Assembly (NCBI RefSeq): GCF_013409065.1
Contig: NZ_JACBZP010000001.1
Span: 744,001-808,000, forward strand
Direction of reading: 5' to 3'
Length of the DNA stretch: 64,000 nt
From: Spelaeicoccus albus
Lineage (GTDB): Bacteria; Actinomycetota; Actinomycetes; Actinomycetales; Brevibacteriaceae
Below are positions 3,119 through 36,509 of the stretch, piece by piece (within the stretch, counting starts at the first letter, position 1; each line of letters starts with the position of its first letter). The notes under the pieces are model-generated. The model had not been told where the DNA came from, did not search any database, and was given only the letters and a program-made list of their open reading frames with translations. The position numbers and the translations under genes are program-made.

Positions 3119-3129
3119 TGGGCGTTTTC

Positions 3130-12623: not shown

Positions 12624-12668
12624 TGTGAACCGGCGGGTTCGCTGGCCGTGTGGCAAAATAATCCGGGT

Positions 12669-16047: not shown

Positions 16048-16048
16048 A

Positions 16049-20066: not shown

Positions 20067-23000
20067 CTAGACGAGCTCGCGTTCGGCGTCAATCATCTCG
20101 ATGGCCTGATGCAAAAACACATCGGCGTACCTGTCGGGATCGAAATCGCCGAGGTAGTACACACGCATTTGTTCACGCTCCTGCGCCAACGGGTCGGCGC
20201 CGAGTAGATCATCCAAGGCGCTCTGCAAGTTGGACAAGTCGCCATCGATGACGTACGACGCCTTCGAGGCGGGCGCGTCCTCCGTCAATTGCCTGCGTGT
20301 CCGACCAACAGAAACCATGGCCAGCGGCTTGCCCGACTGGAGGTAATCGGACACGACGGCCGACACATCGGCGATCATGGCGTCCGACGAATTGAAACAG
20401 TCGATCAACGACATCTCCTGTTCGGCGACGGTACCCCATTTGTGCTCGCGGCCGGTACGTGCCGCGTCCGCGTCGAGCAAGGCGCCGATCTGGCGGATCA
20501 TTGCGCGTGATTCCGCGAATTGGTAATTGAAGCTGTGTGACCGGAAGATCACGGTGCAGCCGCGGGCGAGAAGGGCGGAGACGATTTCCACACCCGACGG
20601 CAACGAATACACTTCCGTGTCCTTGTACGGGCCTTTCCACGTGGGGGCGTACAGCACCGTCTTGTCGTCCATTCGGCTGATCGGCACGTCCGGCCGCTTG
20701 ATTTTTTCGACCTGCGGACGCCCGACGATCTTGAACTTCTCTCGCGGAATCTCGACGCCGTGCCGGGCATATCTGTCGATGCCGGCCTGCCCGGCAGCGT
20801 AGATGTAGTCGTAGATGGCATGGACCGGATTGAAGCAGGCCGGCTTTTCGGAATCGCCGTGGTTCAGCCACACATGCGTCATTTCGCGCCGCTCGATGAA
20901 GTGCGAATTCTTGCCGGCGTTGTTGACGTAGAACGCCACCTTCAGCGACGGCGTGATGACAGTTTCCAGGCTTCGCAAGGTGGGCCTGTTAATGACCGGA
21001 GCTTCAGTCACTTGTCCGGCCGTGCGCATCATCGGCAGGTCGCGAGTCACAACGATGAACGGCCTGCCGATGCGCTGGAAGTATTCTTCCCACATGCCGA
21101 GTTGGTAGCGGATCCCCATGGTAGAGCCGAAATACACGGCGAATTCAGCGCCGTACGACTCCAAAATCGACGGCAGTTGTTCTTCCAAGTTCGCACTTCG
21201 GCGACCGCGAATGATGCCTGAGACGTACACCAACACACCATAAGCAAGCGGAAATAGTGAAACGATGAATGGGATCAACGGTGCAACACCGAAGTAGGCA
21301 AAGATCCACCACAGCGCGGTCGCGGCCGATCCGCCGGCCGCCACTGCACCACGATCAACTGGCTGGAACCCACGCGTTTCGATCCCCGGCAAGTTGCGGG
21401 CTTCCACACCAGTCGCCGCCCACGCTTTACGTAACCCGGTCTCCATCACGCACGTGAACACGAGGATCGCGCTGCCTGCTATGACCTCCCAGGACCACCC
21501 GTAGGTACTTGTCCAGACAAGAGCAAAGACAAAAATCAAAAGCGTGCGAGCACTATTGACCGCGCGAAGCATCCCGGTCAGTTGCCGCCGGGACTTCAGC
21601 GCACGGCGATTCAGATAAAGGTGGACGACATTACCCAGCAGGCCCACTGTGACGACCGCAACGACCGGGGCCGGCACGATAAGAAGAATCAAGGAGGCCA
21701 CGGCAAACAGCGTCGGAAGCAGCGTACGGCCGGCCAAGCGCGTCCATAACCGCCGGAACGTCAATGTCATTGAACGCGAGTCGACGATTGCGTCATCGCT
21801 TTCAAGATCGCCCGTATCGCCGTTGGTTTCCGCGGCCGATGCTTCGCCATTTCCGGCGATGGCAACGTCCTGCGACTCCGGTTCGGCATCTGTCGCCAGT
21901 GTGTCCTCGTCAAGATCGGCATCCTCGTGGCGACGAGGCGTGGTAATCATCCGTTGCGCGGCGGACACGAAATGACCGCCATAATTTTCGTCCGGAAAAT
22001 CCCCGAGGTAGTCCGCACGCATCTCGAGCCGCCGGCTGCGATTAGGATCCTCTCGTAGAAGCTCTTCCAAAACTTCGTCGAGGTTACTCAGGTCTCCTTC
22101 GAGAACGTACGAGGCGCCGGCAATGGGGTACTGTTCGACGAAATCCGCACCGTGCGCACTAACGGCCACCATGGCGAATGGCTTTCCCGAATAGAGGTAA
22201 TCGGAAACGACACTGGACACGTCCGAGATCATTGCATCGGACATATTGGTCAGTTCAAAGACGTCATGGTCCGTCTCAGCCGCCGATCCATAGAGATGGT
22301 TGCGACCGGTTCGCGCCGCGTCCTCCTCCAAAATTGCGGTGATTTTCGCTATCGTTTCGACGTCGTCGGGGAATTGGTAGCTGAACGGATGCGGCCGGAA
22401 AATCACTGTGGCACCCCTGGCAAGCAGAGCGCGAATGATTCCCGGCGCGACCGGGAGCGAATAGAGCAAGGTCTCCTCGACGTGACCACGCCACGTCGGC
22501 GCATAGAACACGACTGGAGAATCGATCTCTTTGATCGGCGTGCTCGTGCGTTCCACCGACTCGAGCTGCGGACGCCCGACGATTTCAAATTTGTCATCGC
22601 CGATTAAGACGCCGTGCGCGCCGTACCGGCGAATTGCGGCCGGTCCGGCCGCAAAGATCTTGTCGTACATGGCGTGCAACGGATTGTAGGATGTTGGCTT
22701 GTCGGAGTCTCCATGGCCGAGGAATACATGGTTGAAATCCGGATATCGCACCATAGTACCGTTGCCCGACGACGCATTGACGTAAAACACCGCGTTAATG
22801 CTTCCGACGAGCACGCTTTCCAGATCTTTTACGCTGCGTCGCGTGACTACCGGAGCATCCGTCAATTCGGCGATCGCACGAGCGGGGCCTTCATTCCGAC
22901 AGATGACGATAAAGCGGTGTCCGGTTCGTTCCAAGTACGGCAACCACATCATGACTTGATGCGGAGCGAGATCGGGCAACGCGTTGTAGATGACGAATTC

Positions 23001-23651
23001 GGGGTGGTAGTCGCGGACCGCGTCGGGCAGCTCACGTTTAAGACGCATGTCGGCCCGCACGGACGCTATCACCTTCGCGGCGATAACACCGTACGCGACA
23101 TCCATTGCAGCGGCGGCGACAAGCCACCAGACGGGTGCCAGCCCGTACACCGAGGTAATCGCGCCAAACGCAATGATCGCCGCCGAGGCGGTAACGATGG
23201 GACGGTCGAGCTGCGGTGGCAAACCTGCCGCAGTGACTCCGGGCAGATGAGCTACGAAGACCCTTCTCTTCGCGGTCGCGCGGCCGAGTATGCTTTCCAA
23301 CGCAATCGGTGTGGCCAATATCGCGCACGAAACGGCAGGCATCCAAAGATGAGCACTCGACCATCCTTGGTGAGCAAAACTCACGGCGACGGACGCTGCC
23401 AACAGCACTCTCACGGTTGCTCGATGCCCCAGTTTCGACCTGTTCCGCCAGAGCGTCAAGACATGGAGACCCAGCACAATGACAACGACGCCGACAAAAA
23501 ACCCGGCGGACACCGACGTGAGGGGCAAATAGGCAGCCAGCAAGGCACCCAAGGCACCGCCGCAGTACGAAAGCGTCGACAGGATGGTCGAACGCGAAAA
23601 TAGAGCCGCCGCGGATTGCGGCGGCTTTGCGGTGTGATCATTCGTCGCCAT
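20067..23651 (-). CDS. Two-module membrane TagF-type polymerase
   Basis: A single 1,194-residue protein holding two complete copies of one module. Each copy has four or five membrane helices followed by a PF04464 catalytic domain. Module 1 (1-572): helices between 25 and 195, HGDSDK 313-318, YAPTWRG 383-389, FRPHPFSYQF, MISDVSSVVSDYL. An acidic, low-complexity linker (about 575-627) follows. Module 2 (628-1194): helices between 645 and 815, HGDSEK 931-936, YAPTWKG, FRSHSFNYQF, MIADVSAVVSDYL. Module 2 has Ser where FRPHP has Pro. Both sites keep the key His. The single-module relative at 23807-25537 is divergent from it. Two linked sites could alternate two units or raise processivity (inference). 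Confidence 0.85.
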   Translation of the reverse strand: MATNDHTAKPPQSAAALFSRSTILSTLSYCGGALGALLAAYLPLTSVSAGFFVGVVVIVLGLHVLTLWRNRSKLGHRATVRVLLAASVAVSFAHQGWSSAHLWMPAVSCAILATPIALESILGRATAKRRVFVAHLPGVTAAGLPPQLDRPIVTASAAIIAFGAITSVYGLAPVWWLVAAAAMDVAYGVIAAKVIASVRADMRLKRELPDAVRDYHPEFVIYNALPDLAPHQVMMWLPYLERTGHRFIVICRNEGPARAIAELTDAPVVTRRSVKDLESVLVGSINAVFYVNASSGNGTMVRYPDFNHVFLGHGDSDKPTSYNPLHAMYDKIFAAGPAAIRRYGAHGVLIGDDKFEIVGRPQLESVERTSTPIKEIDSPVVFYAPTWRGHVEETLLYSLPVAPGIIRALLARGATVIFRPHPFSYQFPDDVETIAKITAILEEDAARTGRNHLYGSAAETDHDVFELTNMSDAMISDVSSVVSDYLYSGKPFAMVAVSAHGADFVEQYPIAGASYVLEGDLSNLDEVLEELLREDPNRSRRLEMRADYLGDFPDENYGGHFVSAAQRMITTPRRHEDADLDEDTLATDAEPESQDVAIAGNGEASAAETNGDTGDLESDDAIVDSRSMTLTFRRLWTRLAGRTLLPTLFAVASLILLIVPAPVVAVVTVGLLGNVVHLYLNRRALKSRRQLTGMLRAVNSARTLLIFVFALVWTSTYGWSWEVIAGSAILVFTCVMETGLRKAWAATGVEARNLPGIETRGFQPVDRGAVAAGGSAATALWWIFAYFGVAPLIPFIVSLFPLAYGVLVYVSGIIRGRRSANLEEQLPSILESYGAEFAVYFGSTMGIRYQLGMWEEYFQRIGRPFIVVTRDLPMMRTAGQVTEAPVINRPTLRSLETVITPSLKVAFYVNNAGKNSHFIERREMTHVWLNHGDSEKPACFNPVHAIYDYIYAAGQAGIDRYARHGVEIPREKFKIVGRPQVEKIKRPDVPISRMDDKTVLYAPTWKGPYKDTEVYSLPSGVEIVSALLARGCTVIFRSHSFNYQFAESRAMIRQIGALLDADAARTGREHKWGTVAEQEMSLIDCFNSSDAMIADVSAVVSDYLQSGKPLAMVSVGRTRRQLTEDAPASKASYVIDGDLSNLQSALDDLLGADPLAQEREQMRVYYLGDFDPDRYADVFLHQAIEMIDAERELV

Positions 23652-23806
23652 CGCAGGCTTTCATGTCGTCAATAGGAGTCTTGTCGATTGTAACGGCGGA
23701 ACGACAGCGCTCGCTATCTGACACGGGTTCAGTTGCCGCCTGGGCCAACATCGTTGGCCCGGCATGCCGTCGCATCACACATTGGCCGCATGGTAGACAT
23801 GAATTC

Positions 23807-25537
23807 ATGAAAATCCCCCGCATCGGTGCCCTCGTACGCCAAATCCGACGTACCGTCAATTGGTTACTCGGCGGCTTCCTCCCCGCGCCGCTTTCGTCGA
23901 GAGCGCTACTCGCAACCGCAGGTGTCGCCGCAGTCGTACTGTTGGCGTGGGGGGACACGATCGCCGGTCTCGTCGTTGGGTTGGTGCTCTCCGCCGGCGT
24001 GTGGTTTTCGGAGGCTGTCGACGCAGTCGGCAAGTCGAACGATTCCATCGCTCGGCATTCGCCCCTGAGCATGTCGTACGCTGTCCTGCTTTGCCTGGGT
24101 TTTGGCGGCCTGTATGCTCAGCGAGCAAGCAGCGGTGCCTCGCTCGAATGGGTGTGCATGGGTCTACTTGGGCTCTGTGGCTGGCTCGTGAACGCTCAGC
24201 CACGATTTCTCGACGTCAAACAGATCGAGACAGCCCACGTACCCAATGTTCCGCGTCCGTCCGACCGTCCGAGGCTCAGCGTCCGTGGGCTCATTCGTGT
24301 GCTGTGGGTTTCGGTGGCTGTCGCCGGGATTTTAGCAGCTACCGAAGTGACACCACTGTGGGTTTGCATCCCGGTGCTGATCACCGTCGTGATTGTCGGC
24401 GCTAACCTATTCGGCGCTTGGCGCTATGCGTATTCACGGCGATATGGCGTGATTCGCGCCGTCAACGCGCTCAAGCCGGAGTTTGTGATCCCGACGGGCG
24501 GCGGAACACCCTTGCAGATCGAGATGTGGGAGCGGTACCTACGCACGCTCGGTAAACCCTACCTAATTCTCCCGACACGACCTATTGCGCTCAAACGTCT
24601 AGCTGCGACCATCGATGCACCGATCGTGCGCCCGGCCGGGCGAAGTATCAGCGAGGCACAAGCAGTGACGCCGTCCTCGGTCCGAGTGGCATTCTTCGTA
24701 CAGAACTCGAGCGATAATGACCTGTTCATCGCCAACAAGCAATTGACAAGCGTCTGGCTGCACCACGGTGACAGCGATAAGCCAGTCACCTATACAAAGA
24801 GAAATAAAAAATATGATCATTTGTTCGTTGCAGGACAAGCAGCAATAGATCGATACAAAGATCACGGCGTGGACATACCCGACGACAAATTCCACATCAT
24901 CGGACGGCCGCAGACGTCTACGATTAACCACGACACGACGAGAATTTCTAGCAAGGCCACGCCTCAAGTCCTTTACGCGCCGACCTGGCGTGGTGAGACT
25001 ACTCGATTCTCTTCGTTGCCACGGGGGATGGAAATTGTTTCGGCGCTGCTAGAGCGAGGCGCAAGCGTCATATTTCGACCGCACCCGGCGAGCCAATATT
25101 ATTGGTATCACCGAGAATTGGTGAGCGAAATCAACGCATTGCTGGAAGCCGATCATCTCAAAACAGGACGGAAACACATGTGGGGTGAAATCTCGGCGGC
25201 GAGCCAAATGCCGTTCGATCGTGCAGCGAATCTCAGCGACGCAATGGTTTCCGACGTCTCGGGAGTCGTAACGGACTATATGCAATCCGGTAAACCATAT
25301 GCAATCGTCTCAAAAGACTTGCCGGCCGACCAGTTCCGCAGGGAATATCCGACCGCCCAGGCTGCGTACATCATTGATAATGATCCGGACACACTTTCCA
25401 CAGCGTTGGATGAAATGCTGGGCGATGATCCACTTTCAGAATTTCGCGACAGTCGCCGACAATACTTCCTTGGCGAATACGAGGGTGTCAAAGCGGTGGA
25501 GCGATTCCTCGGCGAGTCGAGCAAGCTAATGATTTAA
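23807..25537 (+). CDS. Membrane TagF-type polymerase, single module
   Basis: A 576-residue protein with about four or five N-terminal helices (between 30 and 205) and one PF04464 catalytic domain: HGDSDK 320-325, YAPTWRGET, FRPHPASQYYWY and MVSDVSGVVTDYM. It matches each half of the 1,194-residue protein encoded divergently 155 bases away. ATG 23807 fits the divergent promoter region; the longer frame from 23627 would run into the neighbour. The coding sequence from about 24,700 on is visibly richer in A+T than its neighbours (for example around 24,800), hinting at different ancestry. It presumably polymerises CDP-ribitol or CDP-glycerol units. Confidence 0.83.
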   Translation: MKIPRIGALVRQIRRTVNWLLGGFLPAPLSSRALLATAGVAAVVLLAWGDTIAGLVVGLVLSAGVWFSEAVDAVGKSNDSIARHSPLSMSYAVLLCLGFGGLYAQRASSGASLEWVCMGLLGLCGWLVNAQPRFLDVKQIETAHVPNVPRPSDRPRLSVRGLIRVLWVSVAVAGILAATEVTPLWVCIPVLITVVIVGANLFGAWRYAYSRRYGVIRAVNALKPEFVIPTGGGTPLQIEMWERYLRTLGKPYLILPTRPIALKRLAATIDAPIVRPAGRSISEAQAVTPSSVRVAFFVQNSSDNDLFIANKQLTSVWLHHGDSDKPVTYTKRNKKYDHLFVAGQAAIDRYKDHGVDIPDDKFHIIGRPQTSTINHDTTRISSKATPQVLYAPTWRGETTRFSSLPRGMEIVSALLERGASVIFRPHPASQYYWYHRELVSEINALLEADHLKTGRKHMWGEISAASQMPFDRAANLSDAMVSDVSGVVTDYMQSGKPYAIVSKDLPADQFRREYPTAQAAYIIDNDPDTLSTALDEMLGDDPLSEFRDSRRQYFLGEYEGVKAVERFLGESSKLMI

Positions 25538-25552
25538 CGTCTTCACGACGTT
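25536..25552. terminator. Small hairpin between convergent stops
   Basis: AACGTC and GACGTT form a 6-bp stem with a 5-base loop across the stop codons of the polymerase (+) and CDP-ribitol synthase (-) genes. It is short and lacks a T-run, so terminator function is only possible. Confidence 0.25.
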
Positions 25553-26978
25553 ATCCCGACCCCTCCGCGTGTCCGACCAAGGGGTCGTCCTTGCGCACAT
25601 CGATCACGTGACCGGTCTTCGACGCCAGCATGATGTCAAGCGACGCGTGCGCCACGGTCTCAGAGTCCAACAGTGACGCCGGGTCCTCGTCGCCGAATGC
25701 TTTAGTACGCATCGGTGTGCCGGTCCGTTCCGGGTTGATGCAGTTCACGCGCACTTTGTCCGCCGACCATTCGTCAGCGAGCGCCTGCGTCAGGTTGACT
25801 GTTGCGGCCTTCGCCGAGCTGTAAAGACTGTATCCGCTGCGCCCGCGCGTGTACGAGCTGGACGTAAACAGCAGTAGCGCGCCTTCAGATTCTTTGAGTT
25901 GCGGATAAAACGTCTGCGCCAACAGAACCGGGCCTATGTAATTGATCTCAGTGGCTTCGTAAATCGTGTCGTCACTTGTCTCGCTGAGTGCCCCCAAAGG
26001 CAAGACACCCGCCGTATTGACGACAAAATCGACCCGCCCAGTCTCCGCCAGAACCTCGTCACGCGCTTTGATGAGATCGTCACGCTTGTTGATATGCGTA
26101 TTTGTCGACGATCGGGAAAAGCACTTCACCGTAGCGCCGTATTTTTCAGCCAAACGCGCAATATCGGCACCTATCCCGTAGGAGCCACCAAAGATCGCCA
26201 TGGTCTTACCGGTCAAAGCATCACGGTAATCCTGCTCTGACCTATCGATTCCGTCGCCGGCACTCGTCAACTGAAAGAGCTTATCCGCAATGTAGATATC
26301 GATCGGCTCGGTGACTTTCATATTGCGGTCGTCCCCGAGCACTACAGCGACCGGCACATCCGGCGTATAACGCAATACGACGGTGCAGTCGTCGGTGGCG
26401 ACGAAGCGCGGGTCCGCATTGGCCAATTCGTATGCTGCGCGAATTGCCGAGAGCTTGAACGCTTGCGGCGTCTGACCACGCCGAAGGTTAGCCCTGGGCG
26501 GCACATCTTTGATCACCGGATAATTCGGATCGACCTGATCGTCGACTTCGATGATCGTGTCAGCCGACGGAATAGCCACGTCCACGGCTTGACGGAATTC
26601 GAGCGCTTCAATCACATCACTGATAATTCTCGGCGAAAGCAGGGGCCGAACAGCGTCATGCAAAATGACGTTGCAGTCATCATCGCCGAGCGCAGCAAGA
26701 GCCGCTTGCGTCGTGTCATTCCGACTGGCCGCACCTTCGAGGATCTGCGAGACCTTGCCGAAGTCGTTCTTCCGCACGATCTCACGCACGTTATCCAAAT
26801 ACCCCGGAGTCATCATGACTATCACATCGTCGATCAACGGATGGTCATCGACAATCGCCAGCGTGTGCTCCATGATGGGGCGGCCGGCAATTTTGATGAG
26901 CTGCTTGGGAATGCTCAGCCCGACACGGTTGCCGACGCCACCTGCCAGGATGACAGCGACGTTACGAGTTTTTGCCAC
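25551..26978 (-). CDS. Bifunctional ribitol-5-P cytidylyltransferase / ribulose-5-P reductase (Bcs1-like)
   Basis: Makes CDP-ribitol, the donor for poly(ribitol phosphate) teichoic acid, from ribulose 5-phosphate and CTP. It is 475 residues. An IspD/TarI-type cytidylyltransferase domain (about 1-235; LAGGVGNRVG 11-20, ILHDAVRPL, GQTPQAFK) is fused to an SDR reductase (about 250-475; GGSYGIGADIA, NTAGV, Tyr-x3-Lys in YSSAK). This matches Haemophilus Bcs1, whereas Staphylococcus uses separate TarI and TarJ with an unrelated reductase. GTG start with GAGGGAG ahead. It is the last gene of a leftward run, 48 bases after cysN, which ties ribitol supply to sulfate activation. Confidence 0.88.
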   Translation of the reverse strand: MAKTRNVAVILAGGVGNRVGLSIPKQLIKIAGRPIMEHTLAIVDDHPLIDDVIVMMTPGYLDNVREIVRKNDFGKVSQILEGAASRNDTTQAALAALGDDDCNVILHDAVRPLLSPRIISDVIEALEFRQAVDVAIPSADTIIEVDDQVDPNYPVIKDVPPRANLRRGQTPQAFKLSAIRAAYELANADPRFVATDDCTVVLRYTPDVPVAVVLGDDRNMKVTEPIDIYIADKLFQLTSAGDGIDRSEQDYRDALTGKTMAIFGGSYGIGADIARLAEKYGATVKCFSRSSTNTHINKRDDLIKARDEVLAETGRVDFVVNTAGVLPLGALSETSDDTIYEATEINYIGPVLLAQTFYPQLKESEGALLLFTSSSYTRGRSGYSLYSSAKAATVNLTQALADEWSADKVRVNCINPERTGTPMRTKAFGDEDPASLLDSETVAHASLDIMLASKTGHVIDVRKDDPLVGHAEGSG

Positions 26979-27026
26979 GAGATGAACTCCCTCGATGGTT
27001 CAGTAAGCGCGGATTGGCCTCCGTGC

Positions 27027-28292
27027 TCAGTAGCCGTGCTTCGGCGTACCGATCATCCCGGCTGCCACTGTGCGGTTCGTCGACTCGTCGACCAAGATGA
27101 ACGATCCGGTCTCCGGGTTCTGCACGTACGGGTCGGTGAAGAACGGCTGGGTGGTGCGGAGCTTGACGCGCCCGATCTCGTTCAGTTTTAGTTCGTTGAC
27201 GGACTCGTCCCGGTGTAGCGAATTGATATCGACGCGATACATGACGTCCTTCACGATGGCACGGGCCCAGCGCGTCGTCTGCTTGATGGCGTACTTGTGG
27301 CCCTCGTTCAACGGCTGCTTCTCGTCCATCCAGCAAATCCGCGCATCGATATCCTGCGTCGTTTCCGGCGTATTCTGCGGACGGCAAATCATGTCCCCGC
27401 GGCTGATGTCGATGTCGTCCTCGAGACGGACGGTCACCGACATCGGCGGATAGGCCTCGTCGAGTTCACCGTCGGCCGAATCGATTGCCTTGATCTTCGT
27501 CTCGAAACCGCTGGGCAGCACCAGAACGGGATCGCCGGGCTTCATCACTCCGCTAGAAACGGTTCCCGCGTACCCGCGGTAGTCCATTCCGTTAGAGGTT
27601 TGCGGGCGAATCACGTACTGCACCGGGAACCGCACGTCCTGCATGTTACGGTCGCTCGCCACGAAGAGTTGTTCGAGCTGACTCAGCAGCGGGGCCCCGT
27701 CGTACCACGGCATGTTCTCGCTGCTGTTGACGACGTTGTCGCCTTTCAGCGCCGACACCGGAACGAAGGTCAAATCTTGAATGTTCAGTCGCGTCGCGAA
27801 ATCGGAAAAGTCGCGGCGGACCTTTTCGTACTCTTCTTCCGAATAGTCGACAAGGTCCATCTTGTTGACGCACACAACGATGTGCGGCACGCCAAGAAGC
27901 GTCGCCAAGAAGGCGTGGCGTCGGCTTTGCTCGCTGACTCCGTTACGCACGTCCACAATGATCAGCGCAGCATTGGCGGTCGACGCACCCGTGACCATAT
28001 TGCGCGTGTACTGCACGTGGCCGGGAGTATCGGCGATAATGAACTTACGCTTGGGCGTCGCGAAATAACGGTAGGCCACATCAATGGTGATGCCTTGTTC
28101 GCGCTCCGCTTTCAAGCCGTCGGTCAACAGTGCCAAGTTGGTGTATTCGTCACCCCGGCGCCGGCTGACTCCCTCGACGGACTCCAACTGGTCGTTGAAA
28201 AGTGTTTTGGAGTCGAACAGCAGACGCCCGATCAGCGTGCTTTTGCCGTCGTCGACGGAACCGGCTGTGGCAAATCGAAGTAGATCAGACAT
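27027..28292 (-). CDS. cysN: Sulfate adenylyltransferase, GTPase subunit
   Basis: The GTPase subunit of ATP sulfurylase drives formation of adenosine 5'-phosphosulfate (APS). It is 421 residues, the normal length for CysN without a fused APS kinase. GTPase motifs: GSVDDGKSTLIGRLLFDSK at the N-terminus, DTPGHVQYTRNM and NKMD, followed by two beta-barrel domains as in elongation factors. It starts two bases after cysD. The unit also includes cysQ and a sulfotransferase, and no cysH, cysI or cysJ is present in the window, so the APS made here is more plausibly used for sulfation than for cysteine synthesis (inference; reductases may sit elsewhere in the genome). Confidence 0.95.
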   Translation of the reverse strand: MSDLLRFATAGSVDDGKSTLIGRLLFDSKTLFNDQLESVEGVSRRRGDEYTNLALLTDGLKAEREQGITIDVAYRYFATPKRKFIIADTPGHVQYTRNMVTGASTANAALIIVDVRNGVSEQSRRHAFLATLLGVPHIVVCVNKMDLVDYSEEEYEKVRRDFSDFATRLNIQDLTFVPVSALKGDNVVNSSENMPWYDGAPLLSQLEQLFVASDRNMQDVRFPVQYVIRPQTSNGMDYRGYAGTVSSGVMKPGDPVLVLPSGFETKIKAIDSADGELDEAYPPMSVTVRLEDDIDISRGDMICRPQNTPETTQDIDARICWMDEKQPLNEGHKYAIKQTTRWARAIVKDVMYRVDINSLHRDESVNELKLNEIGRVKLRTTQPFFTDPYVQNPETGSFILVDESTNRTVAAGMIGTPKHGY

Positions 28293-28294
28293 CG

Positions 28295-29197
28295 TTAAAA
28301 GTACCCCACGCGCTTTCGCTCTTCCATTGCAGCTTCACTGACTTTGTCGTCGCCTCGAGTGGCGCCGCGTTCGGTGAGACGCACCTTCTCGATTTCTTCG
28401 ACGACCTTTTCGACGGTATCCGCCGTGGACGGCACCGCAGCCGTCAGGTTCGCATCACCCATGGTGCGGTAGCGGACGCTGCGCACCTCGGACTTCTCGC
28501 CGTCCTTCAGCGTGATGAAGTCGTTGACGGCGAAGAGCATGCCGTCACGGTCGACGACTTCACGTTCCTTGGCGTAGTAGAGGTCGGGGACCGCGACGTT
28601 GGCCTCGGCGATATACGTCCAGATATCCAGTTCCGTCCAGTTGGACAGCGGAAAGACACGGATACTCTCCCCAGGGAAGACGCGGCCGTTGTAGAGACTC
28701 CAGATTTCGGGACGTTGACTCTTCGGGTCCCATTGGCTGAACTCGTCACGGAATGAGAAGACACGTTCCTTGGCTCGTGCCTTTTCCTCGTCACGGCGGG
28801 CGCCGCCGAACATGGCATCGAAGCCGTGCTTCTCCGCGGCTTCAAGCAAAACAGGGGTCTGGATCTGGTTGCGCGATCCACCCGGGGGCTCCTTGACCAG
28901 GCCGCGTTCGATAGCGTCCGGGACGCTTGCGACGATCAGCTCGGCACCGAGTTCAGCGATCTTGGCGTCGCGGAACGCGATGACCTCGGGAAAGTTCAGC
29001 CCCGTATCCACGTGCATCACCGGGAACGGTATCCGCGCCGGCGCGAATGCTTTCCGGGCCAGTTCCAACATCACGAGTGAGTCCTTACCGCCGGAGAACA
29101 GCAGGCAGGGCCGCTGCATCTCGGCTGCAACCTCACGCATGATGTGCAGGCTTTCAGCTTCGAGAGCCTTTATCTGGCTCAAAGTCTTACTAGTCAA
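28295..29197 (-). CDS. cysD: Sulfate adenylyltransferase, catalytic subunit
   Basis: The catalytic subunit of ATP sulfurylase forms APS from ATP and sulfate. It has 300 residues, the family's standard length. The PP-loop SGGKDSLVMLELA is near residue 35, followed by HVDTGLNFPE, GGARRDEEKARAKER and FPLSNWTELDIW. Its ATG overlaps the cysQ stop by four bases and cysN follows two bases after its own stop, so the CysDN heterodimer is made from one transcript. Confidence 0.95.
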   Translation of the reverse strand: MTSKTLSQIKALEAESLHIMREVAAEMQRPCLLFSGGKDSLVMLELARKAFAPARIPFPVMHVDTGLNFPEVIAFRDAKIAELGAELIVASVPDAIERGLVKEPPGGSRNQIQTPVLLEAAEKHGFDAMFGGARRDEEKARAKERVFSFRDEFSQWDPKSQRPEIWSLYNGRVFPGESIRVFPLSNWTELDIWTYIAEANVAVPDLYYAKEREVVDRDGMLFAVNDFITLKDGEKSEVRSVRYRTMGDANLTAAVPSTADTVEKVVEEIEKVRLTERGATRGDDKVSEAAMEERKRVGYF

Positions 29198-30009
29198 TCG
29201 TTATGCTCCTCATGGTTCATCGCCGCCAAGATTTCGGTAATTCGTGGCACTAGCGCCGGGCGGCAGATAAACAGATCCGGCAGCCAAGGGTCCGCTCGAT
29301 TGTATATCAGGTCCGTCCCGTCGAGCCGCGACGCGTGCAGACCATGCGCACGTGCCACCGCAACCGGGGCTGCAGAGTCCCATTCATATTGGCCGCCGGC
29401 ATGGATATACGCGTCGGTTTCACCGGTGATGACCGACATTGTTTTGACGCCAGCCGATCCCATGCGCACCAAGTCAACGTCGTACGCGCCGACAATGTCG
29501 TCGATGAGTTTCGGTGGGTGCGACCTGCTTGCCGCCAGCTTCAGCGTCCCGCCATCGACTCCGCCAGTCCGTTGACCCGGCTCACTTGGCAAGTCGAAAC
29601 CCGAAGTATCGAACACCTGCCCACGGCCCGGCAACGCAACGGCGCCCGCGATCAGCCCGTCGGCCTTGGACCACAACGCGACGTGCACCGCCCAATCGTC
29701 GCGCCATACGCCGTCGCTGCGCTCGGAAAACTCCCGCGTGCCGTCAAGCGGGTCGACAATCCAAACCCGGTCGGCGGAGAGCCGCTCGTTCGAGTCCGCG
29801 CCCTCTTCAGAAAGGACGGCGTCGTCCGGCCGAAAACCGGCAAGCTGCTTCATCAGAAATTCGTGCGAGCGGGCATCGCCACTGTCCTTGAGCGTGCGCG
29901 GCTCGTAGTCGGCACCTCCAATGTCCGAACGCAATCCGTTCAATAATTCGCCGGCTTCGCACGCCAGCTGCGAGGCCAGCGCACGATCCGATGTTTTCCC
30001 ATCATTCAT
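29194..30009 (-). CDS. cysQ: 3'(2'),5'-bisphosphate nucleotidase
   Basis: Hydrolyses 3'-phosphoadenosine 5'-phosphate (PAP), the by-product and inhibitor of sulfotransferases, to AMP. It has 271 residues with lithium-sensitive phosphatase motifs: LSEEGAD (metal-binding glutamates), WIVDPLDGTREF, and WDSAAPVAVARAHG near the C-terminus. The gene lies between a sulfotransferase (4-base overlap at 30006-30009) and cysD (4-base overlap). Translational coupling to a sulfotransferase argues that it clears PAP made by sulfation. An inositol monophosphatase role is the less likely alternative. Confidence 0.9.
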   Translation of the reverse strand: MNDGKTSDRALASQLACEAGELLNGLRSDIGGADYEPRTLKDSGDARSHEFLMKQLAGFRPDDAVLSEEGADSNERLSADRVWIVDPLDGTREFSERSDGVWRDDWAVHVALWSKADGLIAGAVALPGRGQVFDTSGFDLPSEPGQRTGGVDGGTLKLAASRSHPPKLIDDIVGAYDVDLVRMGSAGVKTMSVITGETDAYIHAGGQYEWDSAAPVAVARAHGLHASRLDGTDLIYNRADPWLPDLFICRPALVPRITEILAAMNHEEHND

Positions 30010-31307
30010 TTGATTGGTTTCGACCGTCCTGTCTTCAACTTATGCTTCAGGCGTGCGGCTACAGCTCTGGTCAGCTCTCGAGTGGTGTAAGTTTCCGACG
30101 GCCGAGCGCGCTTACCAGCTGCTTTCTTAGTAGGACGACTCCGTTTCGGCGCGGTCGTCTTCTTGAGACTTGCAAGTTTTTTATCCGCAACGTTCTTTTG
30201 ACGCTGGCCCGCCGCCAGCGCGCCCACGACCGACTGCACGCCGATGTCGAACGGCACCTGATCGGCGGGAACACGGTCGGCGCCGACTTTTGGCGGCGCC
30301 TTGAGTTTTGCGAGATCTCCGACTACTCGGACTCCGGTTCGTTCGATGTGCTCCGCAAACTTCTCACCGTCGCGCTGGGCGAGGTCAGCGGCCCATTGAG
30401 GCAATCGCACCGGCGGCTCGTCGGCCGGCGGCACGCGATGATTCACTACACGTCCCATTGCACCGAGTCGGCCAAGCTTATGATAGGTAAACCAATCGAT
30501 TTCCTCATCGCGCAATACAACATTGACCCGACGAAATAACTCTGCTTCGACCGCGGTCATCGATCGATTTGAAAGCGCGGCACTCCCGTCATTTTTACCA
30601 AGTAGTCCCGGCGGGAGTCCCAGTAGTGCCTCGAACGTGTCCGTCAAAAAATTTGGTCGCTTTTCATCGACAATGACGACAGTGACATTGTCTGCACCGA
30701 CAATTCCAGCCCACCGCTCGATCAACTGACCCTGATCATATGCTCGCCGAAAGTGCGCCGGCATGTCCTGTGGATCATCGCCGTATACCCGATTCAACCA
30801 GTCGTTGAGTGTGAGGGTCTGCCCGTCGTCCTTGATACCTTGAGCCCACAGTGAGGGCGCTATGGCTCCGGGCGAGCGAAGTGTTATAACCACGTGCACT
30901 CGGTCGGGGTCTAGCTCGTCCACAAGAGTGTTCGCCCCGACATCGTCGATTTGGCTTAGGTACTCATGAGAAATAAATATTCTGTTATTCTCATCCGCCT
31001 CGATTTCGGCGTGAAGTTTATCCCACTCGGCGCGTGGCGGAACACCAGATTCGTCAGTCTCTAAGAGGTCGGTTCTAATTCGCCCTTCTCGCAAATGAAA
31101 GTAAGCGCTGAATCCGAGTAAAGCGCCAAGTTGAACCCGATGGTTCACCGCCTTACCGGGGTAGCGCACCCCGTGCTCCAACAAATTGCGTCGATTCCGT
31201 CTTGCGGACCGCTGGAGCGAGGTCGTCCCTGTCTTCATTGGTCCAATATGGAGCAATCGCGTCCCCTCCGGAAGCAGGAGGTCGTTTTCGTTGGACTCGA
31301 TAGTCAA
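30006..31307 (-). CDS. PAPS-dependent sulfotransferase with basic tail
   Basis: Probable transfer of sulfate from PAPS to an envelope glycan hydroxyl. It has 433 residues. The 5'-phosphosulfate loop is GPMKTGTTS at 22-30, and the 3'-phosphate-binding segment ITLRSPGAIAPSLW at 141-154 has the usual Arg and Ser. The C-terminal 90 residues are strongly basic (clusters such as KRSRPTKKAAGKRARPSE) and could hold the enzyme to an anionic polymer or the membrane surface. TTG start with GAGGAAG ahead. It is coupled by 4 bases to cysQ and is paralogous to the proteins at 31464-32741 and 63633-64000. The acceptor is not known. Confidence 0.8.
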   Translation of the reverse strand: MTIESNENDLLLPEGTRLLHIGPMKTGTTSLQRSARRNRRNLLEHGVRYPGKAVNHRVQLGALLGFSAYFHLREGRIRTDLLETDESGVPPRAEWDKLHAEIEADENNRIFISHEYLSQIDDVGANTLVDELDPDRVHVVITLRSPGAIAPSLWAQGIKDDGQTLTLNDWLNRVYGDDPQDMPAHFRRAYDQGQLIERWAGIVGADNVTVVIVDEKRPNFLTDTFEALLGLPPGLLGKNDGSAALSNRSMTAVEAELFRRVNVVLRDEEIDWFTYHKLGRLGAMGRVVNHRVPPADEPPVRLPQWAADLAQRDGEKFAEHIERTGVRVVGDLAKLKAPPKVGADRVPADQVPFDIGVQSVVGALAAGQRQKNVADKKLASLKKTTAPKRSRPTKKAAGKRARPSETYTTRELTRAVAARLKHKLKTGRSKPIK

Positions 31308-31463
31308 AGCTTCCTCAAATCATGGGATTTTACCGATCATTACGGTCACGTTCTATCGCCGAGTAACGACGCAAAGCCTACCGGGCGTGCCGGAGTGGGG
31401 CCAATTTGTCGCGTTTCTCGTCGCGTCGGCCGAACCACTTTCGTTCAGTTTGCGGCCTGGCCG

Positions 31464-32741
31464 TCAACGACGTAACGCGGCGATGCTCGTCTTAACCCTT
31501 CGACGGAGCTCCACCTTCAGGGCGTGCGACAAATCGCGCGATGTGTGAGTGTCGGCCGCGCGGATCAGATGCGAAGCGAACGCCAATGCGCGCTGTTTCG
31601 CGCCCTCAGGGGCAGCGCTTCTAAAGACGCCTTTACCAATCGCGGCGTCGAGTGTGCCGAGGATGGACTCAACTGCCACATCCATCGGGACTGAACGTAA
31701 ACCCGCCTCGGTGCCGACACTCGTATTCACCGGGGCCGACAGCGCATTCAAGTCACCCACCACGCGCACGCCCGACCTAGCGATTCGTTTCGCATACTTG
31801 CGCCCACGATCACGCGCGAGCTCGGCAGCCCATTCCGGCATCTGCAGCCGGGGCTCGTCCCCGGCGGGTGTACGGGAGTCGAGCAATCGCCCGATGGCGC
31901 CATGCCGGATCAGTTTCGTGTAGTCGGCCCAGCTGATCGCCGCATCCTTCGCCGCTCGGTTAATCTGCAAAAGCAGCTCAGCCTCCGCGCGCGTCAACGA
32001 CCGGTTCGAGGTGACACCGTTCGTCTGTGCAGCGGACAGCAAGCCCTCAGGGAGTCCAAGAAGTCGTTCGAAACTCTGCAAAAGCAGCTCCGGCCGCCTT
32101 TTATCAACAACTATCACCGTCACGTTTTCGGGGCCGACAATCGATGCCCACCGACTGACAAGGGCCCCCTGATTCTGGCTCCGACGAAACTGTTTGCGCA
32201 TAGGTTGCTCGGGCACCATGTTGAACACTCGTTGCAACCACGCTTCGAACGAGTCGTCTTGCCCGGATTTCAACCGTTGCGTCCACAATGAAGGAAGAAT
32301 TTCCGCCGGATTGCGCAAGGTGATCACGATATGAGTACGTTCACCCAATGCGTCGACGAATTTTCGCGCCATCGCGTTACTCGACTCCGCAGCGAACTCG
32401 TGACTTATCCATGCACGGCGCGAATGGTCGGTTTCCACTTCGGCCATCAGCCGCTCCCACTCTTCGCTGGGCGGAACTGCCTCATCGACTGATCGGTCCG
32501 GGCGCTGACCAACGGCCCCGTTCCGCTGTTCCAAAAGAACTGATTTGTTCATGAACGCGCCAATGGCTTTGCGGTGGTTGAGAGTCGTGCCGGGGTAACG
32601 CACACCGTTGCCGAGCAACTGTCCACGTAGCGAGCTCGCAGCCGATTGTGTCGATGTCGTCCCGGTTTTCATGGGCCCGATATGAAACAAGCGTGCCCGT
32701 TCGGGCAGCAGGAGTGACGCGTCGTCCGGCGATGTGTGCAT
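31464..32741 (-). CDS. PAPS-dependent sulfotransferase
   Basis: A 425-residue paralogue of the next gene in the unit. GPMKTGTTS lies at the same residue numbers (22-30), WISHEF at 111-116 and VITLRNPAEILPSLW at 139-153. The C-terminal region has KGVFRSAAPEGAKQRALAF and a basic end but lacks the dense Lys/Arg tail of its neighbour. It is the promoter-proximal gene of the leftward run sulfotransferase, sulfotransferase, cysQ, cysD, cysN, CDP-ribitol synthase. A promoter-like sequence sits so close to the ATG that the message may be leaderless. Two similar enzymes in series suggest two acceptor positions or sugars (inference). Confidence 0.8.
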   Translation of the reverse strand: MHTSPDDASLLLPERARLFHIGPMKTGTTSTQSAASSLRGQLLGNGVRYPGTTLNHRKAIGAFMNKSVLLEQRNGAVGQRPDRSVDEAVPPSEEWERLMAEVETDHSRRAWISHEFAAESSNAMARKFVDALGERTHIVITLRNPAEILPSLWTQRLKSGQDDSFEAWLQRVFNMVPEQPMRKQFRRSQNQGALVSRWASIVGPENVTVIVVDKRRPELLLQSFERLLGLPEGLLSAAQTNGVTSNRSLTRAEAELLLQINRAAKDAAISWADYTKLIRHGAIGRLLDSRTPAGDEPRLQMPEWAAELARDRGRKYAKRIARSGVRVVGDLNALSAPVNTSVGTEAGLRSVPMDVAVESILGTLDAAIGKGVFRSAAPEGAKQRALAFASHLIRAADTHTSRDLSHALKVELRRRVKTSIAALRR

Positions 32742-32747
32742 AGCCCT

Positions 32748-32776
32748 AAATTACCGAGTCCGTCGATCATGACCAA
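32748..32776 (-). promoter_or_regulatory. Probable leaderless promoter of the sulfation operon
   Basis: On the minus strand TTGGTC and TAATTT are separated by exactly 17 bases, and the -10 element ends six bases before the sulfotransferase ATG at 32741. No ribosome-binding site lies between them, so transcription would start at or next to the ATG. Leaderless messages are common in actinobacteria. Confidence 0.55.
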
Positions 32777-32825
32777 TTTGGCGGAATCGCCGGAAAGGCT
32801 GCTTGTGCCCTATAGGGTGAAACTG

Positions 32826-34100
32826 ATGAATACAAAGCCCACTTCGGACAACGCGTCGCTGGTTCTGGCCGGCGCCGATCTCGATCTACTCGAACTGGCG
32901 CTCGGCGGGGCGATCGACAATGCTTTCAGCGTACGTGACGGCACACGCGTCCTGACGGACGCCGAGAACACCCCGTTGGCCGCACTGACTCCGTCCGGCG
33001 CAGACGGTGTGCAGACCGCGACCGCCCGACAACAGTTCCACGTCGGCCAATCCGCCCAATGGGACGCGAACTTGCGCCGGCCGGCCCGTGACGTCAAGAT
33101 GTGCACGACCGGCGACGTGCTCGCCGTTGCGATCACGGACTTCCCAACCATTTCGGATATGAAACGCGTGCAGCAAGCGATTGCCGAGCGGCCGGCAAGT
33201 TCTGTCCTCTGGCTGATACTCGTTGGGCGACAGTCCGGCGGTATCGATTCCGGCCCCGAGGGGCCCGCACTCGTCCGCGCAGCAACTGCGCTGGCGCCGG
33301 AGGGATCGATAACGGTCATCGTCCCGTGGTCCGCGGGGGCGGCGCCTGTCGAGCTGACGATCCGCGATCTCGAACCGTCGTCTTCGAATTTCATCCGCCG
33401 GGTACTGTCCGGTTACGGCGCGGACGACGTGCTGGACGTCGCCTCGACGAGGCCGGAGGAAGATAAGCGGCTCATCGCCGAGCTCGATAATGCGTGGCGC
33501 CACGCCGCCGGCGCCGTTTATCCGAAAGAGTCGCTCGACGAACTCGAATCGCTAAGGGCCTCGGGCGCTGCCACAACCGACGGACTAGTGGTTCTGTTGA
33601 GCGGACTCTCCGGCTCCGGAAAATCGACGATCGCGCATGCCCTGTCCGCGGAACTCCCGGCGAGACTCGGCCGTCGGTCGACGTTGCTGGATGGCGACGA
33701 GGTTCGCCAGATGCTCTCAGCCGGGCTTGGATTCGACCGTGAATCACGCGAGTTGAACGTCAAACGCATCGGGTACGTGGCAGGACTCATCGCCAGTCAC
33801 GGCGGTGTTGCCGTCGCCGCGCCTATCGCGCCATTCGCCGGTGCAAGATCGTACGTGCGCGCACAGGCCGAAGCAAACGGCCGATATTTGCTCGTCTATG
33901 TGTCAACGCCGCTCGAAGTCTGCGAAGCGCGCGATCGTAAAGGCCTGTACGCCAAGGCTCGCGCCGGCGAAATTGCCGAATTCACGGGTATATCGTCACC
34001 ATACGAGGTCCCGGACGACGCCGACTTGACGATCGACACATCCGTCACAGCTGTCGACGCTGCAGTCGATCTGATCATCCACGCGATCGAGATGGGATAG
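32826..34100 (+). CDS. cysC: APS kinase with N-terminal sulfurylase-like domain
   Basis: Phosphorylates APS to PAPS, the sulfate donor for sulfotransferases. It is 424 residues from ATG 32826. The C-terminal domain (about 250-424) is a full APS kinase: Walker A GLSGSGKST at 260-268, LDGDEVR, and a terminal DLTIDTS segment. The first 250 residues resemble a worn ATP-sulfurylase scaffold without clear catalytic motifs. ATP sulfurylase here is CysDN, so this domain is probably structural or regulatory. In-frame starts at 32736 and 32769 lack ribosome sites and the former overlaps the divergent gene. TATAGG at 32811 would place transcription close to ATG 32826. A GDPD gene follows after three bases. 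Confidence 0.88.
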   Translation: MNTKPTSDNASLVLAGADLDLLELALGGAIDNAFSVRDGTRVLTDAENTPLAALTPSGADGVQTATARQQFHVGQSAQWDANLRRPARDVKMCTTGDVLAVAITDFPTISDMKRVQQAIAERPASSVLWLILVGRQSGGIDSGPEGPALVRAATALAPEGSITVIVPWSAGAAPVELTIRDLEPSSSNFIRRVLSGYGADDVLDVASTRPEEDKRLIAELDNAWRHAAGAVYPKESLDELESLRASGAATTDGLVVLLSGLSGSGKSTIAHALSAELPARLGRRSTLLDGDEVRQMLSAGLGFDRESRELNVKRIGYVAGLIASHGGVAVAAPIAPFAGARSYVRAQAEANGRYLLVYVSTPLEVCEARDRKGLYAKARAGEIAEFTGISSPYEVPDDADLTIDTSVTAVDAAVDLIIHAIEMG

Positions 34101-34837: not shown

Positions 34838-35671
34838 TTACGTTTGATCGCCGTCGCCGTCGTTGCGGCCGGGACCGCGGTCACGCTCGCGTTTGCCCGG
34901 GTGGTCGCGTCGAGATTCCTGATAGGCGGGTACGACTTCCTCCGTCGGACCGTCCATGACGAGTTCGCCTTCGTTGATCCACAACACCCGATCGCAGGTA
35001 CTCCTGATCGAGGACATCGAGTGGCTGACCAGAAAGACCGTGCCGGCAGCCTCGCGAATCTCGCGGATTCGGTCCTCGCTCTTTGCGCGAAATTCCTTGT
35101 CGCCGACGGCGAGCGCCTCATCGACAATGAGAATCTCATGCGCACGAGACGTAGCGATAGCGAACTTGAGCCTTGCGGCCATGCCGGAGGAATACGTGCG
35201 CATCGGCATGTTGATGAATTTTTGCATGTCGGTGAACTCGACAATTTCGTCGCGCCGCGCCTCGATTTCATCGATGGTGAATCCCATGGCAAGGCCACCG
35301 AGGATAATGTTTTGTTCACCCGAGAGGTCGCGGATCAGGGCTGCGCCCACGCCGAGAAGGTTCGGCCGCGACGAAGCGTAAACCGCCCCCTTACTGGCAG
35401 GAGTCAGGCCGACTATCGCCCGCATGAGTGTGGACTTGCCCGATCCGTTATGGCCGATGACGCCGATCGATTCATTCTGGTAAGCGGTGAATGAGACGCC
35501 TTTCAGGGCGTGCACCGTCTGGGTTGCCCGACCTCGCTTGAACAACTTACTGCTGGCATTGCGCACACGTTTACCGGTGACGTAGACGCGGTAATCGACG
35601 TGCAAGTCGTCAACGACGACAACCGGAGTGCGCGTTTTCACTGCCGACGGAGCGTTAATCTGTTCGACCAT
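34838..35671 (-). CDS. tagH: Teichoic acid exporter ATPase, first copy
   Basis: ATP-binding subunit of a TagGH-type exporter that flips lipid-linked teichoic acid to the outer membrane face. It is 277 residues. Walker A GHNGSGKSTLMR, signature YSSGMAARLKFAIATS and Walker B ILIVDEALAVGD are intact. It lacks the long C-terminal extension of Bacillus TagH. The start at 35671 has GGAGG ahead and overlaps the permease gene's end by 17 bases; the longer frame to 35722 has no support. A second TagGH pair occurs at 55769-57542. Confidence 0.9.
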   Translation of the reverse strand: MVEQINAPSAVKTRTPVVVVDDLHVDYRVYVTGKRVRNASSKLFKRGRATQTVHALKGVSFTAYQNESIGVIGHNGSGKSTLMRAIVGLTPASKGAVYASSRPNLLGVGAALIRDLSGEQNIILGGLAMGFTIDEIEARRDEIVEFTDMQKFINMPMRTYSSGMAARLKFAIATSRAHEILIVDEALAVGDKEFRAKSEDRIREIREAAGTVFLVSHSMSSIRSTCDRVLWINEGELVMDGPTEEVVPAYQESRRDHPGKRERDRGPGRNDGDGDQT

Positions 35672-36509
35672 ATCGCTCCTCCGCCGCCCAGAAATAGAGA
35701 CCGCCTCCGACGAAGCTGACAACCGCCCATGCAGCGCCGATCAGGAAAGTCGTCATATCCACGTCATACCCCGGCACCAACGCGCCGCGTGCGATCTGCA
35801 TGTAGTCGTAAAGCGGATTGAGGGTGAAGAACAACAAAAACCCTGCCGGGAGTATGCCGGGGATGAAACGCTCCGGCCCGTACAGAACGCCCGAAAAATA
35901 CCTGGCGAACCGGTTGATGAAGGGGATGACCTGGCTGAGGTCGCGGAAGTGGACCGTGACTCGGGCGACGAACATCACGAGGCCGGCGTTGAAGAGCGTG
36001 GCCATGACGATTGCCGGAATCAGATAGAACCAGCTCCATGTTGGTACCGAGCCAAAGAGAATATTGATGATGATCATCAGGCCGACCATGGGCATGAAGT
36101 TCAAGAAGTGCTCGATGGCAGTGGCGAGCGGTAGCACCATACGCGGGAAGCTGAGGCTTTGCACGAGGTTCTGATTGTTCGTGATCGATTTCGTACCGCC
36201 GGAAAGACACGAGCTGAAGAACCGGAAGAAGAAGATTCCGGTGATGAGGTACTGCAGGAAGTTTTCCGGCTTATTCGCGCCGAGCACGAAACCGAAAACG
36301 ATCCCGTAGACCGCCGCGTCGAGCAGCGGAGTGATGACGACCCACGCCATGCCGAAACGGTTGGCCTGGTTCGAAGCACGAATCCTCGAGCGCGCTAGTG
36401 TGTAAGCGAAGTCACGCCGCTGCCACACCTGTTTGGCGTACTGCCCAAGCGGCGACCTGGCGCCGACGCGCTTCAGACCGTGCTGAGCCGCGTAATCGGC
36501 CAAACTCAT
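35655..36509 (-). CDS. tagG: Teichoic acid exporter permease, first copy
   Basis: ABC-2 membrane subunit, 284 residues with about six helices. The N-terminus has KQVWQRRDFAYTLARSRIRASNQANRFG, an amphipathic interface region typical of TagG/Wzm proteins, and the middle shows FFRFFSSCLSGGTKSI. It forms a complete exporter with the overlapping TagH downstream. The gene order, with polymerases and CDP-ribitol synthase upstream, makes the ribitol-phosphate polymer its likely cargo. Confidence 0.88.
   Translation of the reverse strand: MSLADYAAQHGLKRVGARSPLGQYAKQVWQRRDFAYTLARSRIRASNQANRFGMAWVVITPLLDAAVYGIVFGFVLGANKPENFLQYLITGIFFFRFFSSCLSGGTKSITNNQNLVQSLSFPRMVLPLATAIEHFLNFMPMVGLMIIINILFGSVPTWSWFYLIPAIVMATLFNAGLVMFVARVTVHFRDLSQVIPFINRFARYFSGVLYGPERFIPGILPAGFLLFFTLNPLYDYMQIARGALVPGYDVDMTTFLIGAAWAVVSFVGGGLYFWAAEERYGRTD

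Follow-up and report, generated by a model that had tools for sequence, protein, structure and literature searches.

The question raised by this locus is what a cell sulfates when a full set of genes for making 3'-phosphoadenosine 5'-phosphosulfate (PAPS) lies among genes for wall polymers. The locus is part of a 64,000-nucleotide stretch of the Spelaeicoccus albus genome (contig NZ_JACBZP010000001.1, positions 744,001 to 808,000), referred to here as the window, in which genes for ATP sulfurylase (cysD and cysN), adenosine 5'-phosphosulfate (APS) kinase (cysC), a CysQ-like phosphatase and two predicted sulfotransferases (ST1 and ST2) stand together. Our data suggest, with a probability of about 0.7, that the locus is a wall-glycopolymer sulfation module whose acceptor may be any wall glycopolymer of the cluster.

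The proposed sulfation module and its predicted enzymes

On the minus strand the gene order is ST2-ST1-cysQ-cysD-cysN-bcs1, and cysC is divergent on the plus strand. These genes, a permease gene and a third sulfotransferase gene lie in the window as follows:

31464-32741, minus strand: ST2, predicted sulfotransferase-fold protein of 425 amino acids (motif conservation and predicted fold)
30006-31307, minus strand: ST1, a paralogue of ST2 with 44% identity in the matched part (motif conservation)
29194-30009, minus strand: CysQ-like 3'-phosphoadenosine 5'-phosphate (PAP) phosphatase (PF00459; recurrent module member)
28295-29197, minus strand: CysD, ATP sulfurylase small subunit (TIGR02039 over its curated cut-off)
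27027-28292, minus strand: CysN, ATP sulfurylase GTPase subunit, without APS kinase fusion (TIGR02034 over its curated cut-off)
25551-26978, minus strand: Bcs1/TarIJ-like CDP-ribitol synthase candidate (IspD and short-chain dehydrogenase Pfam domains pass)
32736-34100 as an open reading frame, plus strand: CysC, APS kinase with an N-terminal, apparently degenerate ATP-sulfurylase-like part (PF01583 at residues 283-434, over cut-off)
12648-13631, plus strand: TauE-family permease, candidate sulfate importer (PF01925)
63633-64000, plus strand: ST3, 5' part of a third paralogue of the sulfotransferases, truncated where the window ends (paralogy search)

The computed junctions are a gap of 156 bases between ST2 and ST1, overlaps of 4 bases between ST1 and cysQ (30006-30009) and between cysQ and cysD (29194-29197), a gap of 2 bases between cysD and cysN and one of 48 bases between cysN and bcs1. 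Recomputation thus reproduced the gene order, strands, overlaps, 2-base gap and divergent cysC described in a first-pass annotation of this DNA. Scans for promoters and terminators gave no more matches than in shuffled sequences.

By Pfam and NCBIfam models the PAPS synthesis set is complete, with both ATP sulfurylase subunits and an APS kinase domain. For the CysQ-like protein the best NCBIfam model is TIGR01331 (CysQ), with a score under its cut-off, and the inositol-phosphatase Pfam domain passes. The Bcs1 candidate scores under the cut-off of both the ribitol-5-phosphate cytidylyltransferase and the IspD models of NCBIfam, and TarI-type chains are among its best sequence matches in the PDB. 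CysC probably starts later than the first GTG of its reading frame. In Foldseek its predicted structure (predicted local distance difference test, pLDDT, 74) aligns over its length with 1m8p, 3cr8 and 2gks, which are the Penicillium ATP sulfurylase and the sulfurylase-kinase fusions of Thiobacillus denitrificans and Aquifex; the root-mean-square deviation is about 12 Å overall, so that the match holds domain by domain only. This alignment points to a degenerate fused sulfurylase part (window 32736-33560) before the kinase, and a comparable N-terminal part is found in module CysCs from other genera.

Homologues of the TauE-type permease adjoin cysC, between cysC and cysN or cysQ, in eight loci of relatives (L077, L082, L090, L096, L099, L101, L102 and L103; G, L and g numbers are our handles for genomes, loci and genera). 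This recurrence beside cys genes suggests that the TauE gene of the window is probably the sulfate permease of the set. We take DUF81 and TauE to be one family. In Corynebacterium glutamicum the DUF81 protein CysZ behaves as a sulfate importer, according to the available part of that study (PMC1266029).

ST1 and ST2 matched no Pfam or NCBIfam family, ST2 alone giving a sub-threshold Sulfotransfer_1 match (E 0.12), and a PDB sequence search with the sulfotransferase profile returned nothing under E 0.01 (best 3rnl, 0.031). We found that K25, E115, R143, S151 and W153 (ST2 numbering) are invariant in 24 of 24 aligned homologues. The lysine and the arginine-serine pair eight residues apart fit what we take to be the PAPS site of known sulfotransferases, with a lysine at the 5'-phosphosulfate and an arginine and a serine at the 3'-phosphate. 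The ST2 model (pLDDT 87; predicted template modelling score 0.87) finds 3rnl in Foldseek (E 4.2e-6), and its best fold match is the N-sulfotransferase domain of NDST1 (Z 15.6, 237 residues, 3.7 Å), followed by an Alicyclobacillus sulfotransferase (Z 15.4) and heparan 3-O-sulfotransferases (Z 14.0-14.7). Cytosolic, polyketide and glycopeptide-antibiotic sulfotransferases reach Z 11.0 at most among the 50 entries listed. The predicted fold of ST2 is thus nearest to glycan sulfotransferases, which favours a glycan acceptor.

A fourth paralogue, ST4, lies past the window end, about 2.5 kb beyond ST3 (contig position about 810.1 kb). In a search of the organism's own family (60 genomes, 4 genera) the sulfotransferase family was found in this genome only, in four copies; the other 59 genomes contained no member.

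Recurrence across the order and the acceptor polymer

In a sample of 396 genomes of the order, from 110 genera, the sulfotransferase family occurs in 32 genomes of 12 genera (counts of sulfotransferases are lower bounds, with at most four candidates scored per genome). An APS kinase at E 1e-20 or better is present in 72 of the 396, and all 32 sulfotransferase genomes are among them (hypergeometric P 2e-27). Looser cut-offs give 207 (E 0.001) or 199 (Pfam cut-off) kinase genomes, mostly through weak or partial matches, and at 199 the co-occurrence has P 7e-11; neither P value is corrected for relatedness. The shortest distance between a sulfotransferase gene and an APS kinase gene is 30 kb or less in 20 of the 32 genomes, from 8 genera. 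Neighbourhoods read by tblastn indicate that in Isoptericola and other genera CysQ-CysD-CysN, CysC and often a TauE permease adjoin sulfotransferase, TagGH, family-2 glycosyltransferase and TagF-type genes. These data suggest that the module holds candidate genes for actinobacterial wall sulfation.

Several observations weigh against this reading. Linkage within 30 kb is missing in 12 of the 32 sulfotransferase genomes: in nine the APS kinase is on a different contig, and in three it lies over 380 kb off. Two of the 20 linked genomes (G294 and G126) have weak sulfotransferase matches only. In five genomes of genus g43 and in G073, the 15-20 kb surrounding the sulfotransferase gene are free of wall and cys homologues, which indicates that the family is not confined to a wall or cys setting.

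Three kinds of loci deserve separate mention. In the g43 loci (L086, L087, L088, L091 and L093, in genomes of 7.8-9.4 Mb) the sulfotransferase family is perhaps used differently. Locus L104, in the 2.7 Mb draft genome G126 (100% completeness), has cysD, cysN, cysC and a weak cysQ match beside wall-type genes; this genome has no CysH-type match, which would mean PAPS without a reductase, and its sulfotransferase match is weak. At L103:10942-12249 a more distant sulfotransferase-like protein with no Pfam match is encoded between the PAPS genes and NeuB.

The wall-polymer genes around the module in the window are the following:

11106-12623, plus strand: polysaccharide pyruvyl transferase (PF04230)
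13730-14806, plus strand: family-2 glycosyltransferase, recurrent in module loci (domain search and relatives' loci)
14803-16140, minus strand: Glyphos_transf protein (PF04464)
16049-17971, minus strand: Glyphos_transf protein (PF04464), with a 51% identical homologue beside an ST1-type gene in Microlunatus
18112-18810, plus strand: nucleotidyltransferase, LicC-like by context only (PF12804), with homologues in the G128 and G378 loci
18823-20046, plus strand: Glyphos_transf protein (PF04464)
20067-23651, minus strand: double-domain Glyphos_transf protein, polymerase candidate (PF04464 in two stretches), with a homologue near Bcs1 in G283
23627-25537, plus strand: Glyphos_transf protein (PF04464)
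34838-35722, minus strand: TagH-like ABC ATPase, set 1 (PF00005)
35655-36509, minus strand: TagG-like ABC permease, set 1 (PF01061)
42447-44447, minus strand: TarS/TarP-like glycosyltransferase with a TarS linker domain (PF22181, E 1.9e-28; PDB matches 8bz4, 5tze and 6h1j, the last two presumably TarS and TarP)
47375-48544, minus strand: UDP-GlcNAc 2-epimerase, WecB/MnaA type (PF02350)
48537-49565, minus strand: LytR-CpsA-Psr (LCP) ligase (PF03816)
51613-52662, plus strand: undecaprenyl-phosphate sugar-1-phosphate transferase, WecA/TagO type (PF00953)
55769-57542, plus strand: second TagG/TagH pair, set 2 (PF01061, PF00005), with homologues beside sulfotransferases in g116 clusters
58924-62508, plus strand: glycosyltransferase-Glyphos_transf fusion (PF00535 and PF04464)

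By domain, genes for TagGH export and LCP ligation are thus present. Glyphos_transf (TagF-type) proteins number six in the window and one beyond it, with a specificity that is not readable from sequence. Homologues of the set 1 TagH near the cys genes of relatives are 49-64% identical (37% in L090). A DUF6270 protein (58094-58855), with homologues also in the g116 clusters, adjoins the fusion gene. At 1973-4458 a UDP-sulfoquinovose synthase (SqdB)-like protein is encoded beside a family-4 glycosyltransferase, possibly as sulfolipid or sulfosugar genes; it matches Arabidopsis SQD1 at E 2e-95, and the NCBIfam model stays under its cut-off. At L008:11136-15146 a protein of 1336 residues combines TPR repeats, a Glyphos_transf domain and a group-1 glycosyltransferase.

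The first-pass annotation had assigned the PAPS to O-sulfation of a ribitol-phosphate polymer. A supply for the surrounding wall polymer remains the favoured reading; the general link to a CDP-ribitol synthase does not hold. Full-length Bcs1 occurs in 2 of the 32 sulfotransferase genomes among the matches listed (this one and G283), and the third-best match is already a one-domain protein. In G283 the Bcs1 block is about 160 kb from the module, and Bcs1 lies beside the module in the S. albus genome only. Judged by gene content, Bcs1 does not travel with the module, and it was rejected as a conserved partner. The proposed check of co-occurrence therefore came out positive for the sulfotransferase family with APS kinase, far above chance, and negative for the pairing with Bcs1.

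NeuB is present in 26 of the 32 sulfotransferase genomes (145 of 396 overall), within 30 kb of a sulfotransferase gene in 19, and by Pfam these loci encode NeuB, CMP-sugar synthetase, polysialyltransferase-like and DUF6716 proteins. Synthesis of CMP-nonulosonate by NeuB-type genes is a commoner partner of the module than Bcs1, in clusters that resemble those for teichulosonic acid. The S. albus genome has no NeuB match (in a large sister genus 33 genomes are listed with one and a single genome, G015, without), and teichulosonic acid was rejected for it on this ground.

ST1, ST2 and two Microlunatus endophyticus proteins form a set of four (support 99), the only grouping we use from a sulfotransferase tree whose branches are long and whose deep forks are weakly supported; the two Microlunatus entries share a single genome, and six g116 entries added to the tree are tblastn segments. 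One of the two Microlunatus relatives is encoded directly after a glycosyltransferase-Glyphos_transf fusion; a TarS-linker gene is close by, and 21 kb of this locus contain no NeuB. The lack of NeuB, the Bcs1, TagF-type and TarS-linker genes and the context of this relative make teichoic acid the likeliest acceptor in S. albus, a tentative choice that we hold at somewhat less than even odds. By gene content, a poly(alditol phosphate) teichoic acid would be the most likely substrate of ST1 and ST2, likely a ribitol-based one. The sulfate is likelier to sit on a sugar substituent than on the polyol, and a ribitol hydroxyl as the sulfation site is decidedly unlikely.

It may instead be that the acceptor is a non-teichoic wall polysaccharide containing rhamnose, glucuronate or galactose, with the adjacency of Bcs1 incidental. 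This alternative, which is nested within the wall-sulfation reading, we consider rather unlikely. Genes for rhamnose, glucuronate and galactose do occur in the cluster, which leaves room for other glycans as acceptors, and in 17 kb of locus L032, that of the second Microlunatus relative, there is no TagF gene. In relatives the module accompanies NeuB-type clusters (within 30 kb in 19 of the 31 others), sulfotransferase genes alone sit with UDP-glucuronate-type clusters, neither setting includes Bcs1, and the Bcs1 block of G283 is distant. The sulfate reported for Promicromonospora citrea, in the accessible part of the source, is on the glucose of a teichulosonic acid (PMC6801904). Against this alternative, NeuB is absent here, Bcs1 lies 48 bases after cysN in the same orientation, and the set of four that holds ST1 and ST2 includes a protein encoded directly after a Glyphos_transf polymerase.

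A second polymer may be involved. In three genomes of genus g116 (5-7 Mb) sulfotransferase genes lie beside TagGH, WecB, LCP, UDP-glucose dehydrogenase and glycosyltransferase genes; in S. albus these neighbours have their matches in the right half of the window and past its end, the region that also holds ST3 and ST4. No cys homologue and no NeuB were found in the 40 kb read of each g116 cluster. The position of ST3 and ST4 suggests that one PAPS supply may feed two polymers. We infer, as a tentative scheme that could well be wrong, that the four dedicated sulfotransferases and one PAPS supply sulfate two wall polymers, of which one would be a ribitol-phosphate teichoic acid, and that the module was moved from nonulosonate (teichulosonic acid) clusters to a teichoic acid cluster. 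In the wider wall-sulfation reading, sulfate would enter probably via the TauE-type permease, CysDN would convert it to APS, and CysC would convert APS to PAPS. ST1 and ST2 would then transfer sulfate in the cytoplasm onto hydroxyls of the polymer or of its lipid-linked precursor, before TagGH export and LCP ligation, and CysQ would clear the PAP. ST3 and ST4 would probably act likewise on another polymer, for which the set 2 TagGH pair would be the exporter, and the same APS would also feed a distant cysH for cysteine. Sequences and structure models show the gene set, the single cysD and cysC, the fold class, the CysD lineage and the co-occurrence; from these we deduce the enzyme activities, the import of sulfate, the acceptor and the position of the sulfate.

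Sulfate assimilation elsewhere in the genome

A further possibility is that cysDNCQ mainly supplies cysteine and that the acceptors of the sulfotransferases are small molecules, for example a lipid or an antibiotic. The genome has two PF01507 matches, the window cysD and one cysH about 1.05 Mb away; no PAPS or APS reductase is thus encoded in the window, where the first-pass annotation had likewise seen no PAPS reductase. The genome search that it had proposed returned this one cysH, no second cysD and no Sat match (CysN was not searched apart), and CysC is the only APS kinase match in the genome. What had been named as grounds for abandoning wall sulfation is thus partly present: there is a sole cysD, no Sat was found and a cysH exists. 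Small-molecule substrates are disfavoured by the fold of ST2, which resembles glycan sulfotransferases more than small-molecule or antibiotic ones, and by the recurrent wall-polymer context.

The cysH gene is flanked by a gene of nitrite/sulfite-reductase type and one for a siroheme-type methylase; no cysD is nearby. We found CC and CxxC motifs, with 83-84 residues between their first cysteines, in all 32 CysH proteins read (from this genome, 29 of the 31 other sulfotransferase genomes and two family relatives); G073 and G126 gave no CysH-type match. We take this spacing to be the iron-sulfur pattern of APS reductases. With such a motif in CysH, cysteine synthesis should not need CysC, and cysC and cysQ would be idle if the module supplied cysteine. 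PAPS here should then serve sulfation, and CysDN both branches. In the available parts of two studies, an APS kinase is absent from C. glutamicum, whose CysH complements cysC mutants of Escherichia coli (PMC1266029), and in Mycobacterium tuberculosis the reductive branch starts from APS, PAPS forming the sulfation branch (PMC3141025). The NCBIfam naming tells against our interpretation: the model over its cut-off calls CysH a phosphoadenylyl-sulfate reductase, the APS_reductase model falling just under (219.6 vs 235.3), so that CysH may use PAPS.

The lineage of CysD bears on the same question. Identity of the window CysD to module CysDs from other families is mostly 66-79%, with two at 45% and 50%. 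Eleven CysDs from its own family reach 57-58%, and each of the 11 is encoded next to cysH. A CysD tree unites the 11 in a single cysH-linked clade (99) with second copies from G378, G385 and G181; these three genomes carry both kinds, one CysD beside cysH and one beside APS kinase. The window CysD falls outside this clade, near module CysDs, with moderate support (93 and 90 on the nearest branches); the module group as a whole is supported at only 47, and G126 and L034, labelled module, fall far outside. The S. albus cysD is thus neither beside cysH, as in an assimilatory cysH-cysD-cysN operon, nor in the cysH-linked lineage. Judging from these sequences, a sulfation-type cysDN may have been acquired in place of the cysH-linked set of its own family. 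Given the CysH cysteine motif and the CysD lineage, the module was rejected as an ordinary cysteine supply, and we consider the chance that cysteine is its main purpose to be small.

That the PAPS genes are passengers, cysteine genes brought into a variable wall locus by horizontal transfer, would fit the identities of CysD and the missing sulfotransferase family in the other 59 family genomes, and it is most improbable given an APS kinase within 30 kb of the sulfotransferase family in 8 genera and the tight junctions of cysQDN with ST1.

Comparison with known systems

Were teichoic acids sulfated in this way, they would gain a negative charge other than phosphate, which may matter for the binding of ions and phages and for growth under phosphate limitation. 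In the open-licence PMC literature we found no paper that joins sulfation genes to teichoic acid. The first-pass statement that no described pathway has this layout nevertheless goes too far, since Cobetia capsule clusters (PMC11766843) and a wall-sulfation proposal for Pontimonas (PMC6106888) come close. As the available parts of these papers and of that on Actinoplanes wps-1 indicate, sulfation of bacterial surfaces or walls with such genes is not a new idea. The likenesses and differences below likewise refer to the available parts of each source.

The CysD/CysNC/CysQ/Stf system of M. tuberculosis shares the APS branch point, PAPS for sulfation and CysQ; it differs in sulfating metabolites and a sulfolipid and in its fused cysNC, and no linkage to a wall polymer is mentioned in that part of the source (PMC3141025). 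The wps-1 cluster of Actinoplanes missouriensis is likewise an actinomycete polysaccharide cluster with two predicted sulfotransferases, whereas it follows a Wzx/Wzy pathway with other sulfotransferase domains, and the available main text mentions neither cysD, cysC nor PAPS (PMC13390465). The Cobetia marina capsule has cysN/C, cysD, cysQ, a sulfate permease, sulfotransferases and ABC export in one surface-polysaccharide cluster, and its sulfated polymer was shown chemically; unlike the S. albus locus it is a Gram-negative, KpsSC-primed capsule with a fused cysN/C, and teichoic or LCP genes are not mentioned in the part available (PMC11766843). Pontimonas salivibrio is an actinobacterium that has acquired a PAPS pathway and whose sulfotransferases are presumed to act on the wall, but it has no PAPS or sulfite reductase, and its wall was inferred to be polyrhamnose, with two teichoic genes missing and no chemistry in the part available (PMC6106888).

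Chemical precedents come from actinobacterial walls. Pyruvylated teichoic acids are known in Brevibacterium, and the wall teichulosonic acid of P. citrea contains 3-O-sulfated glucose and pyruvylated Kdn (PMC6801904, citing Dmitrenok 2017). The latter is, like the polymer proposed here, an actinobacterial wall glycopolymer, with both O-sulfate and pyruvate, and the window contains a pyruvyl transferase gene. It differs in being a Kdn polymer for which the available part of the source names no sulfation genes (PMC6801904), the S. albus genome being without NeuB. Isoptericola, of the Promicromonosporaceae, has the module. For relatives, the sulfated teichulosonic acid of P. citrea gives the module a plausible, chemically known product.

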